From the NCBI GenBank assembly GCA_017468425.1, contig JAFUIO010000026.1:1-64000 (forward strand): 64,000 nucleotides of DNA. Reading direction: 5' to 3'. The DNA is from Clostridia bacterium. Lineage in GTDB: Bacteria > Bacillota > Clostridia > Oscillospirales > Acutalibacteraceae. A model generated the notes under the pieces. It saw nothing but the letters and a program-made list of their open reading frames with translations. It ran no database searches and had not been told where the DNA came from. A program made the translations under genes and the position numbers. Positions 22,952-27,647 of the stretch are shown one piece after another. Each line of letters starts with the position of its first letter. Within the stretch, counting starts at the first letter, position 1.

Positions 22952-23296
22952 TTACTTGCTCTTTGATTTTGCAAAAAGTGACACCACAAAGCCACTTATT
23001 ATGGCAGCAGTAATGCCTGCCGCACCTGAAGACAAAGGTCCTGTCAATATCCCAAGCCAGCCTGCTTCATCGATTTTTTCCCTTGTTCCTTCAGCCAGAA
23101 CATTGCCGAAGCCTGTAAGCGGCACAGTTGCACCGCAGCCCGCCCATTCCGCAAAAGCGGGGTAAAAACCTATTGCAGAAAGTATAACTCCTGCCACAAC
23201 AAAACCTACAAGAATGCGTGCAGGTGTAAGCTTTGTGAAATCAATCAGAAGCTGACCGATAACACATATAAAACCTCCGATAAAAAATGTCTTCAA
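22952..23296 (-). CDS. spoVAE: Stage V sporulation protein AE
   Basis: A protein of about 114 residues, one of the SpoVA membrane proteins for dipicolinic acid passage in spores. Diagnostic stretches are GGFICVIGQLLIDFTKLTPA and ATVPLTGFGNVLAEGTREKI; three or four membrane helices. The start is uncertain: TTG 23296 is the only usual codon in frame before a stop, but it lacks a ribosome site. The GAGGG site lies further up, inside the terminator of the preceding gene, and faces ACG at normal spacing. spoVAC and spoVAD, normally in the same operon, are not in the window, so this is an orphan copy. Confidence 0.88.
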   Translation of the reverse strand: MKTFFIGGFICVIGQLLIDFTKLTPARILVGFVVAGVILSAIGFYPAFAEWAGCGATVPLTGFGNVLAEGTREKIDEAGWLGILTGPLSSGAAGITAAIISGFVVSLFAKSKSK

Positions 23297-23396: not shown

Positions 23397-26300
23397 TCAC
23401 ATACGTGCTCTTATCACAGAAACTGTTGTAGTTATTACCGCAATAATTATCTGTACAATCACAACTATACCTGCTGTGAACACAGAAAGATTTCCGCCGA
23501 AAGCAAATACGGCTGCAGTAATAAGCCCTGCAAGCATCATTATTGCCTGAATAATGAATGTAAGTTTAACACTGCCTGAATAAGAAAATGCAGATGCAAA
23601 TGTTTCAAACAAAGAAAGTGATGTTCCGTCATGAATTAATTTTGCATTAGCAGTTTTACGTACACGATGAATGTAACCGTCAAGCAAGCCGCCCTCAAAA
23701 TCGCCCACAACTTTAAAGCTTTCTCTGGGCATATTATATTCGAGAGAAAGGAATTCTTCATCTATGTTGCAGTCATTTGTTGAAACAACAATTGTAATTC
23801 CGTTTTTCTCAAGCTTTGCAAGATGCTTTTTCATTTCTTCGTTTTTGCCGTATTCAACCACAAGCATAGCCGCAACTCTGCCGTCAATTGCAATGTAGAG
23901 AACTTTTTTGCCTTCCTTCAGGCAGGCAACCTCCGCACCTTTGGGCGGTGCTTCCATATTGTGGTTTATAAGAAGATTTCTGTTACCTACAAAAACCTTT
24001 TCTCCTCTTATCCAGCCGGTAAGACCGAGTCTTTCTTCGTAACGCAGGTCTTCAACTTCAGGAAGAAGCTCTCTTCTGTCGCCGATAATTGCTTTGTCAA
24101 AAACATGAGCAAGCGGACCTCTCGAGTTTGTAAGCATTGCTGCTGCGTAGAGAATAATATCGTCAACTCTTACCGTACCGTAGTCCTTCATCCCGTGGAA
24201 ATTACACTTACTTACATCAAACAAATCTATTGCGTCAACAACAACAGCATCTGTCTTATCGATATTTGCCGTTGAATTATAGCCTGTGATACAAGCTCTT
24301 CTCTTTGCAAGTTTTTTGTTGACAGATGCAAGAGAGAAGTTAAGAGTAAACAACAACGTTGTGGGGAAAGACACAAGAAGTGCTGCCATAAGTGTTGAAA
24401 AAGCCACAATAACATCCTGATTCACAATTGCAGCAATAACCGCAACTATAAGCGAAAGCACTGCAAATACAGGGAAGAAAAGTTTAGTAAATCTGTCTGC
24501 AGGATTGGATGCAAAAGAATTATAAACAAATCTTCCGGGGAACATTGTTTTGCATGAATATTTCAGGTCAGGATTATTTCCTGCAAAAACTCTGCCGATA
24601 TTCTGTGCAGTGTTAAGGTCATCAATATTCTGTATTGTGAATAAATTATCCTGTCTTTTTGCCGTAGCAGTTTTAAACGCATTAATTGCACGTGTGGTTT
24701 CCATTGTTCTTCCTAAACAATTGAAAACAACACACATAATAACAGCTACTGTGTATACCGGATAATTTTCCGTAACACCTGATAAATCGAAAAACATCAC
24801 AAGAGAGGTGAGTATGGAAACAAGCACCATAACAGTCACTGCTGTCTCACCTGTGAATTTACCCTTTGACAAGCCTGAAATGCCCGGCTGTGTAACAGAT
24901 GAGCCGAAAACAAAGGTAAGTAACATACAAGCAAGTGACAAACCTACCGTGCATGCAGAATTAACACTGCTTGACATAATTTCTATACCTGAAAGCAAAC
25001 CTGTTATTCCTGCAAAAAGCAATGCCATTATTGCCATTGCAATCATTCCGAAAATATATCGTCTGCGTCTGTCATAAAGCTCTCTGAAAACCTGAGGTTT
25101 TTCATTGGGTGTTGAATATTCCGTCAGTTTTTTATCTCTTTCCTGAATAAAAGATTTTTTAAACATGGTGAAGAAAGATTTAGGATCATTTTCGTCGCTG
25201 AGAACGAGATGCTCCTCTTCATCGTACTTACCTTTTTCAGGTGAAAAATAATTGGGGTCAATATCATCATAATCGCTGGGAAGACTTGTTATTTTGAAAA
25301 GATTTTTCTTTTCTTCACGCACTTTACGTAATTCTTCCTGAACCTCATCATCACTGACTTCCTCAGGCATCATATCTTCATCTTCCGTAAAGCCGTCAAA
25401 TCTTAACTGGTCATCGTCAACTTTTCTGTTATATTGTGAAAAGAAAATATCGTTATTTTCTTCATCTTCCGCTTCTTTTTCAGCTTCAGAAATATTATCT
25501 GATTTTGCTACTTCCTCAAAATCGGACAAACCGTCAATAAAAATAGTTGACTCAGATTCTTCTTTGTCTTCAGAAGATAACTTCCCGTCAATAATTTTTG
25601 TCTGCTCAAAATTTTCAGGCAGAACCTTTTCAAAAATCTGAGTTTTTTCTTCTGCGACGGTTTCTTCTGCAACTTCAGGTTTATCTTCCTGAATTTCTTC
25701 AGTTTCCACAGGTTCCGCAGCGTCTACATATTCCTGACTTTCCAGGTCAAAACGCTTTTCTCTTACCGGCGGAGTAACTGTTTCCTGAGCTTCAAGCTTT
25801 TCAAGCTCGGCCGCACGCTGTCTGCGAAGAATATCGTTGAAATCGCCTTCTTTTCTTCTTGCATCGAAAATAGCTTCACCGAATTTTTCTTTTACGGTTT
25901 CCATTGCATTTTCTCTGACTTCGGCTCTTTCCACTTTTCTCTTGTTGAGAATTTTTGAATTTTTAAAAATATCCTTGATTTTTAAATAATCGCCTCTGTC
26001 AAAGGTACCGTCATAAACAACCTCATTGTCGCTTATTCCGTCGTCATAAGAGCTTTCGTCAATTTCTTTGAATTCTCCGTCTTCTCTTGCGTCATTTATG
26101 TTCCCTTCAACTGAAGAAAATTCGTTATCTGCAATATTGTCAAAAAAAGTGTTTTCCACCTGAGGCACTTCTGTTTTTTCTTCCTCAATTGTTGACAGCA
26201 CACCTTCAAAACCGGAAACAAAGTTTTCTTCATTTTCCGTTTCTTCTGTTTCGGGGAAAAATTCCTCTGCCGACTGAATTTCTTCTTCAACTGTTTCTTC

Positions 26301-26801
26301 AATTTCTTCAGGAACTTCGTCAGTTTCTTCATCAGAAACCTGCTCTGTTTCCTGCTCTTCAGAATCTTCATCTTCAGGCTCAACATAGCCTTCAGAAACA
26401 GAAGAAATATCTTCAAATTCTGTGGGAATTTTATTTCCATCATCAGCTTTATTTGCTAAATCCTGCTCATATTCTTTGGAAAAATAAACAGCACTCTCGT
26501 CGTAGCTTTCTTCGCTTTCTTCTTTTTCTGTTCTGCCGAAATCAGGCTTCTGCGGTTCAGAATATTCCTGATATCTGTCAACATCAAATTCTTCATCTGC
26601 CTGCTGAATATCGGGAAGGTTTCCCACATCTTCAATCAACTTATTGATATCGTCAATTGACCAATTCTTTACAGGTGTTCCGTCAGAGGATTCAAACAAA
26701 TCATCAACCAAAGCATTTTCCTGCTGTTCATCAACAGACTCTTCATATATTTTTCTGTATTTTTCAATTTCCAGTCCCATCAAATCGATTTCATCAGACA
26801 T
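23397..26801 (-). CDS. Degenerate P1B-type ATPase-like membrane protein with a long acidic amino-terminal region
   Basis: 1,134 residues. Residues 1 to about 540 are very rich in Glu, Asp and Ser and probably disordered. About 545-700 carry the first membrane helices (IFGMIAMAIMALLFAGITGL and others). A later pair (about 775-830) is followed by the P-type ATPase core order, but every catalytic motif is altered: the metal-site CPx is SFP, DKTGT is DAIDL (Asp856 kept, Lys-Thr-Gly-Thr lost), TGDN is STNDCN and GDGxND is missing. The nucleotide-domain part GWIRGEKVFVGNRNLLINHN is still recognisable. Two carboxy helices end it. It is thus probably a pseudoenzyme without ATP-driven transport; function unknown. 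AGGAGGTAA sets the start; rlmB lies 63 bases upstream on the same strand. Confidence 0.85.
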   Translation of the reverse strand: MSDEIDLMGLEIEKYRKIYEESVDEQQENALVDDLFESSDGTPVKNWSIDDINKLIEDVGNLPDIQQADEEFDVDRYQEYSEPQKPDFGRTEKEESEESYDESAVYFSKEYEQDLANKADDGNKIPTEFEDISSVSEGYVEPEDEDSEEQETEQVSDEETDEVPEEIEETVEEEIQSAEEFFPETEETENEENFVSGFEGVLSTIEEEKTEVPQVENTFFDNIADNEFSSVEGNINDAREDGEFKEIDESSYDDGISDNEVVYDGTFDRGDYLKIKDIFKNSKILNKRKVERAEVRENAMETVKEKFGEAIFDARRKEGDFNDILRRQRAAELEKLEAQETVTPPVREKRFDLESQEYVDAAEPVETEEIQEDKPEVAEETVAEEKTQIFEKVLPENFEQTKIIDGKLSSEDKEESESTIFIDGLSDFEEVAKSDNISEAEKEAEDEENNDIFFSQYNRKVDDDQLRFDGFTEDEDMMPEEVSDDEVQEELRKVREEKKNLFKITSLPSDYDDIDPNYFSPEKGKYDEEEHLVLSDENDPKSFFTMFKKSFIQERDKKLTEYSTPNEKPQVFRELYDRRRRYIFGMIAMAIMALLFAGITGLLSGIEIMSSSVNSACTVGLSLACMLLTFVFGSSVTQPGISGLSKGKFTGETAVTVMVLVSILTSLVMFFDLSGVTENYPVYTVAVIMCVVFNCLGRTMETTRAINAFKTATAKRQDNLFTIQNIDDLNTAQNIGRVFAGNNPDLKYSCKTMFPGRFVYNSFASNPADRFTKLFFPVFAVLSLIVAVIAAIVNQDVIVAFSTLMAALLVSFPTTLLFTLNFSLASVNKKLAKRRACITGYNSTANIDKTDAVVVDAIDLFDVSKCNFHGMKDYGTVRVDDIILYAAAMLTNSRGPLAHVFDKAIIGDRRELLPEVEDLRYEERLGLTGWIRGEKVFVGNRNLLINHNMEAPPKGAEVACLKEGKKVLYIAIDGRVAAMLVVEYGKNEEMKKHLAKLEKNGITIVVSTNDCNIDEEFLSLEYNMPRESFKVVGDFEGGLLDGYIHRVRKTANAKLIHDGTSLSLFETFASAFSYSGSVKLTFIIQAIMMLAGLITAAVFAFGGNLSVFTAGIVVIVQIIIAVITTTVSVIRARM

Positions 26802-26864: not shown

Positions 26865-27647
26865 CTACTTCGCTTTTATATTACTTCTCTGCCTTGAAAT
26901 TTCCATCATAAGCACACCTGCCGCAACAGATGCATTAAGCGATGTGATTTTTCCTTTCATAGGCAATGTTACAAGAAAATCGCATTTTTCCTTTATCAAT
27001 CTTCCGATCCCTTTACCTTCTGAGCCTACCACAAGGGCACAGGGGCCTGAATAATCAACGGAACACCAGTTTTCACCGTTCATATCTGCGCCGTAAACCC
27101 ACACACCGCGTTCTTTCAGGCTATCGATTTCCGCTGCAAGGTTTCCCACTCTCGCCACAGGAACATATTCTATTGCACCTGCTGAAGTTTTGCCGACTGC
27201 AAAAGAAAGAGAAACGGAACGTCTTTTGGGAATAATAATTCCGTGGGCACCTGCAACTTCTGCAGTTCTGATTATTGCACCTAAATTATGCGGGTCTTCA
27301 AGTTCATCGCAGATTATAATAAACGGTGCTTCGCCTCTTTCCTCGGCAAGACGGAAAATATCATCAACACTTGAATATTCTTTTACCGCACATTTCGCGG
27401 CAACACCCTGATGGTTGGCATTGAAGCACATAAAATCAAGCTTTTTGATATCTACTTCCTTGATTACAACACCTTTATCTTTACATGCGCGTAAAATTGA
27501 AGATACAGAACCGCCTCTTTCACCTTTTGCAACAAAAAGTGTGTCAATTGTTCTGCCTGAATTAATCGCCTCAAGCACTGCATTTCTGCCGATTAAAAGG
27601 TCATTATTCTCTTTGTTTATTTCTTTTTCATTATTTCTCATCTGCAA
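26865..27647 (-). CDS. rlmB: SpoU-family rRNA 2'-O-methyltransferase (RlmB type)
   Basis: A 260-residue SPOUT enzyme, expected to 2'-O-methylate G2251 of 23S rRNA. The amino-terminal substrate-binding domain starts LLIGRNAVLEAINSGR. The SPOUT motifs are DELEDPHNLGAIIRTAEVAG (motif 1), ALVVGSEGKGIGRL (motif 2) and LPMKGKITSLNASVAAGVLM (motif 3, SAM knot). Two near starts (27647, 27641) are possible. Its promoter is at 27674-27702. The large P-type-like gene follows on the same strand. Confidence 0.92.
   Translation of the reverse strand: MQMRNNEKEINKENNDLLIGRNAVLEAINSGRTIDTLFVAKGERGGSVSSILRACKDKGVVIKEVDIKKLDFMCFNANHQGVAAKCAVKEYSSVDDIFRLAEERGEAPFIIICDELEDPHNLGAIIRTAEVAGAHGIIIPKRRSVSLSFAVGKTSAGAIEYVPVARVGNLAAEIDSLKERGVWVYGADMNGENWCSVDYSGPCALVVGSEGKGIGRLIKEKCDFLVTLPMKGKITSLNASVAAGVLMMEISRQRSNIKAK

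Follow-up and report, generated by a model that had tools for sequence, protein, structure and literature searches.

A P-type ATPase fold without the enzyme: a probable P1B-derived pseudoenzyme family conserved across an order of Clostridia

The gene analysed here appears to encode the fold of a P-type ATPase without the enzyme. This assignment as a pseudoenzyme and not a transporter, which had been proposed in the original prediction, was supported in every test that we ran on profiles, motifs and modelled structure. The gene lies in the window, by which we mean the whole stretch of 64,000 nucleotides under study, and its open frame and minus-strand orientation were correctly given at the outset (Table 1). 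It belongs to a family that is present in nearly every genome of its order, and its probable role, as argued below, is that of a membrane scaffold.

Table 1. Positions in the window of the gene, the parts of its product and the neighbouring rlmB.
Feature	Residues	Window position	Strand	Remarks
Whole gene, pseudo-P1B-ATPase	1134 aa	23397..26801	-	single open frame, ATG start; dN/dS 0.13-0.18
N-terminal short helix motif WSIDDINKLIED	47-58	26628..26663	-	helix in AlphaFold model, block pLDDT 73
Acidic region, mostly disordered	62-467	25401..26618	-	repeated Thr motifs EKTEV, EKTQIF, EQTKII, ESTIFI
Basic block, partly helical	268-338	25788..26000	-	conserved within genus
Tail module QxLxGF...LxxxRxxKxxxF	462-508	25278..25418	-	Q465, L491, F502 invariant (n=54 full-length homologues)
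Membrane helices MA, MB, M1, M2	565-713	24663..25109	-	model and profile alignment
A-domain remnant	718-760	24522..24650	-	TGE motif and ~90 residues missing
M3 and M4	767-832	24306..24503	-	CPx replaced by a lone Pro (P813)
DAIDLF	856-861	24219..24236	-	at the place of DKTGT
N-like domain	867-984	23850..24203	-	HP replaced by GP; second Gly of GxG (G926) and G939 retained
TNDCN	1008-1012	23766..23780	-	at the place of TGDN; D1010 retained in 47/48
P-domain end, shortened	1024-1059	23625..23732	-	GDGxND deleted
M5 and M6	1061-1133	23403..23621	-	AlphaFold model
rlmB, 23S rRNA 2'-O-methyltransferase		26865..27647	-	TIGR00186 6e-74; conserved upstream neighbour, same strand

Results

The kinship with P1B ATPases goes far beyond chance and is visible at several levels. 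Namely, residues 766-1016 match the NCBIfam models CopA (1.3e-15) and TIGR01525 (5e-13), and the solved Legionella CopA (LpCopA) matches the protein at 7e-10, from which it follows that the open frame is a real relative of these pumps. Both NCBIfam matches stay far below the curated cut-offs (57.6 vs 1316 bits for the CopA equivalog, 50.7 vs 346 bits for TIGR01525). Pfam holds no family for the 1134-residue protein, and neither Pfam nor NCBIfam has a model that covers the gene family. Comparison of a family profile with 17 true P1B ATPases gave a match over the whole core (552 columns, 100% probability, E 1.5e-40). What is more, an AlphaFold model of residues 562-1134, built with 75 homologues, reached a pLDDT of 90 and a pTM of 0.85, and its closest structural neighbours are P1B ATPases (Foldseek E 4e-18; VIA Z of 22.4 to ATP7B and 22.0 to LpCopA). 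In this model the M, P and N domains are arranged in the P-type order, the MA and MB helices of the P1B class are present, and all eight P1B membrane helices (MA, MB, M1-M6) are retained. The structure prediction that had been suggested as a check thus returned a P-type core, and the claim that the fold order is kept holds. In other words, model and profiles together confirm a predicted CopA-type frame that is complete in MA, MB, M1-M6 and the P and N domains, the same elements in the same order as in the heavy-metal ATPases CopA and ZntA (LpCopA, 3rfu; ATP7B, 7si7).

Unlike those ATPases, which keep CPx, DKTGT, TGE and GDGxND, the family is without all four and has lost most of its A domain. 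We counted motifs in two partly overlapping sets of 48 and 75 homologues, with 17 true P1B ATPases of the same order as control. DKTG, CP[CHS] and GDGxND occur in 0/48 and 0/75 homologues, whereas every motif is intact in 17/17 of the controls; an intact DKTGT is likewise absent from both sets, so that the loss, which had been noticed in this one protein (CPx, DKTGT, TGDN and GDGxND gone or altered), is no local mutation. At the DKTGT place one finds a sequence of the type D-[A/S]-x-[D/E]-[L/I/V]-[F/Y], the phospho-Asp position being D in only 29 of 48 homologues, and TGD/TGDN has become TxDxN. At CPx only the proline is conserved, [CST]PC being found in one homologue of each set. No Cys/His ligand set is conserved there in M4 among the homologues, which lends no support to metal sensing. 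In the N domain, at least 47 of 48 homologues carry another residue at the position of the HP histidine (G 33, S 8, T 2, L 2, C 1, M 1), the Glu preceding it is lost, and of the two glycines of GxG the first is not conserved and the second (G926) is kept.

Going beyond the original prediction, the profile alignment reveals two large deletions, one of about 90 A-domain residues including TGE and one of about 30 residues holding GDGxND; only a small A remnant is seen in the AlphaFold model. TGE strings do occur in 7 of 48 homologues, and that of the window's own protein (KFTGETAV) precedes M1, outside the remnant. In the established P-type mechanism, use is made of the phosphorylation site, the dephosphorylating A domain, the Mg-site motif and the metal site. 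Because all of these are lost, pumping is very unlikely, and the family probably does not carry out ATP-driven transport. That said, G926 and G939 are invariant, D1010 is found in 47 of 48 homologues, and Y984 and H947 are strongly conserved; since D1010, G926 and G939 are retained, the protein may still bind a ligand of some kind. The same genome also encodes a true P1B ATPase in which every motif is present (G000:C38, locus L002).

Could this be simply a pump gene that was recently broken in this genome alone? The missing catalytic motifs might suggest so, but the homologues across the order all lack the same motifs and the frame is open. What is more, dN/dS against four relatives is 0.13-0.18 for the core and 0.14-0.18 for the tail. 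The gene is intact and under purifying selection, and we regard local decay as refuted by the shared motif loss and its probability as negligible. A full-length homologue (E below 1e-60) was found in 90 of 98 related genomes, and in a set of genomes drawn evenly from the order the gene is carried by 289 of 297, representing 143 of 146 genera (E below 1e-45), with one match per genome except for two in G421. In a draw of the whole class, 6/6 genomes of the order carry it and 0/141 outside; two weak matches near 1e-40 span only columns 193-472, the part common to true P1B ATPases. The named loci with the gene are from Clostridia, with Oscillospiraceae, Acutalibacteraceae and Eubacterium accounting for many, and we infer the order to be GTDB Oscillospirales. 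Because the gene is conserved across the whole order, it very likely has a useful job. This is, in short, a near-universal, single-copy, order-specific family of abundant gut bacteria that lacks a family model, and it may qualify as a core gene of the order and as a marker for it. One homologue (L030, G081:C38:4896-6551) has a single in-frame TGA within its reading frame.

The claim of an acidic region of some 540 residues stands in substance: the tail is N-terminal, runs from residue 1 to about 560 and is 32% D+E, as compared with 15-32% in the tails of other homologues, and most of it is modelled below pLDDT 50 (434 residues of the full-length AlphaFold model, mostly in the tail). Short helices are predicted at residues 49-60, 283-307, 319-338 and 484-501. 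A long acidic N-terminal tail is found in most family members, unlike in CopA/ZntA-type P1B ATPases. Its length ranges from about 11 residues, being absent in some homologues, to about 1070 (1068), and homologue frames range from about 545 to 1629 residues, so that the word giant, applied to this protein before, was an overstatement. Some families consist of core-only homologues of 545-554 residues. In these the core alone suffices, docking through the tail cannot be the universal function, and the ion buffering that had been considered for the tail is not supported. Tail-less open frames of about 553 residues were noted in G068, G092, G249, G262, G274 and G297.

Three things are conserved in the tail: the N-terminal helix motif (FSLDDILAE or WSLDDIDALL in the family), the QxLxGF module of about 45 residues, and the repeated [DEQ]KTx[VI]. 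The latter was observed 101 times in tails vs 6 expected from shuffles, while the Ser form is not enriched, and its density is about 50 times that of other open frames in the same loci; since the counts take in related sequences, the z-scores for this motif are inflated. In 12 genomes, no other protein carries the N-terminal motif N-terminally, and only chance internal matches were found. Matches to the QxLxGF module outside the gene are weak or can be explained by a gene split over two contigs (G020), and the module has no match in the PDB. WSLDDIDALL (window 26628-26663; N-terminus of L102) has a possible likeness to the N-terminal EIDALL motif of FliM, as QxLxGF may have to beta-clamp motifs.

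Discussion

The loss of the catalytic motifs and of most of one domain suggests that the protein has a structural or docking function in the membrane and does not transport. The explanation that we favour, and to which we would give somewhat better than an even chance, is a non-transporting, P1B-derived membrane scaffold with a docking surface, to which most families add a docking tail. Following this line of reasoning, an ancestor of the order would have gained a further gene for a P1B (CopA-like) ATPase, probably by duplication. This copy would then have lost the chemistry of phosphorylation, dephosphorylation and the metal site while its fold was kept as a membrane protein. The core, from MA to M6 with the P- and N-like domains, would serve as a membrane anchor and a cytoplasmic interaction surface, the latter presumably formed by conserved patches around Y921-E922-G926-W930, G939, H947, Y984 and D1010-N1012. 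In most families, the disordered acidic tail would add docking sites through its short conserved modules, possibly under the control of Thr phosphorylation. The family offers a test case for the reuse of a transport ATPase fold without catalysis.

As for precedents, the guanylyl cyclase beta of Plasmodium has a degenerate P4-ATPase domain, reported to be without most signature residues and joined to a signalling function (PMC6592433). That domain is of the P4 class, eukaryotic and fused to a cyclase, whereas the proteins studied here derive from the P1B class, stand alone and are found in bacteria throughout one order. In the open-access literature we found no paper describing a bacterial pseudo-P-type ATPase, and the statement that no protein of this design has been described is consistent with this result, within that literature, and with the lack of a Pfam or NCBIfam model.

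A passive channel, or a site for a regulatory ligand, may also be compatible with the sequence. In particular, the N- and P-like domains could bind a nucleotide or another small ligand without turnover and relay a conformational change to either the tail or the membrane domain. The well-predicted N-domain fold and the conserved G926, G939, D1010, Y984 and H947 agree with such a sensor, but conservation is missing at the residues by which P1B N domains contact ATP (the Glu, the His of HP, the first Gly of GxG), GDGxND of the Mg site has been deleted, and we hold this reading to be unlikely. Still more improbable, in our view, is that the protein acts as a passive transporter or channel, or pairs as an inactive subunit with an active P-type ATPase. 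It is true that all eight membrane helices are there and that the same genomes hold true P1B ATPases; however, the metal site of M4 is gone with nothing conserved in its place, and the constant neighbour of the gene is rlmB and not a transporter.

A different idea starts from the tail. Twenty genomes, the window's among them, encode small proteins with two FHA domains, and one could imagine a cell-wall scaffold under phosphorylation control, in which a Hanks-type kinase would phosphorylate Thr residues of the tail and the tandem-FHA membrane protein, encoded with RodA/FtsW and PBP genes, would bind them. Such kinases are present in 11/11 genomes, the tail enrichment is specific to the Thr form of the motif, and the tandem-FHA gene adjoins SEDS and PBP genes in 8 of 9 loci examined, only a PBP being clustered beside it in the ninth (L235). 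Thr motifs are more numerous where the FHA protein is encoded (p 7e-5), and the QxLxGF module is found in 17 of 19 genomes with the FHA protein vs 4 of 30 without. There is also a mycobacterial precedent: according to PMC11898655, FhaA binds phosphorylated MviN (citing Gee et al. 2012), Thr phosphorylation is read by an FHA protein, and fha genes lie near rodA/pbpA. Against this, the co-occurrence comes down to one clade once the tree is considered, with 2-3 independent contrasts of which none is supporting, and we do not take it as proof of a link. The Thr motif is also lacking from several tails in genomes that do encode the FHA protein, and the FHA protein does not share the near-universal distribution of the gene. 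All in all, a cell-wall scaffold of this kind seems as doubtful to us as the ligand sensor, and the link of the gene to the FHA-RodA-PBP operon is a lead only.

The MviN pseudokinase-FhaA system, as described in PMC11898655, offers a possible analogy and no more, in that a membrane protein with a dead domain is involved; the fold of our family is unrelated to the pseudokinase, and its phospho-link is hypothetical. The broader proposal, in which a P-type-derived scaffold would join Ser/Thr-kinase signalling, through tail phospho-Thr and a tandem-FHA reader, to the SEDS/PBP wall machinery, is a shade less probable again than the cell-wall scaffold itself. If this were true, Clostridia would have in the family their own version of the mycobacterial system, with a different dead enzyme as its basis. 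In the window's genome, an operon-like run (L233:7204-10606, G000:C10) holds genes for a tandem-FHA protein, a RodA/FtsW-type SEDS protein and a PBP transpeptidase, an arrangement resembling the mycobacterial fha-rodA-pbpA order.

A role in sporulation was considered as well. SigG, SpoVAE and SpoIIE lie near the gene in the window's genus. Across the order, gene presence does not track SpoIIE: the gene is present without SpoIIE in G028, G053, G065, G084 and G088 and absent with SpoIIE in G039, G047 and G054, and we have abandoned the idea of such a role. In the window, SpoVAE (22952-23296) lies just downstream on the same strand, 0.9 bits below its NCBIfam cut-off. Promoter- and terminator-like sites occur at a frequency near chance level.

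On the upstream side, the neighbourhood is nearly constant. In a first set of 41 loci, 40 of which include upstream sequence, rlmB directly precedes the gene on the same strand in 40/40 (33 by clustering of open frames and seven more by tblastn). Among 80 named loci, partly overlapping with this set, it is directly upstream in 72 of the 75 testable; of the remaining three, two have rlmB upstream at a larger gap or with a broken frame and one is without it. At five loci (L044, L045, L063, L070 and L071), what looks like an EF-G-like GTPase gene follows on the same strand.
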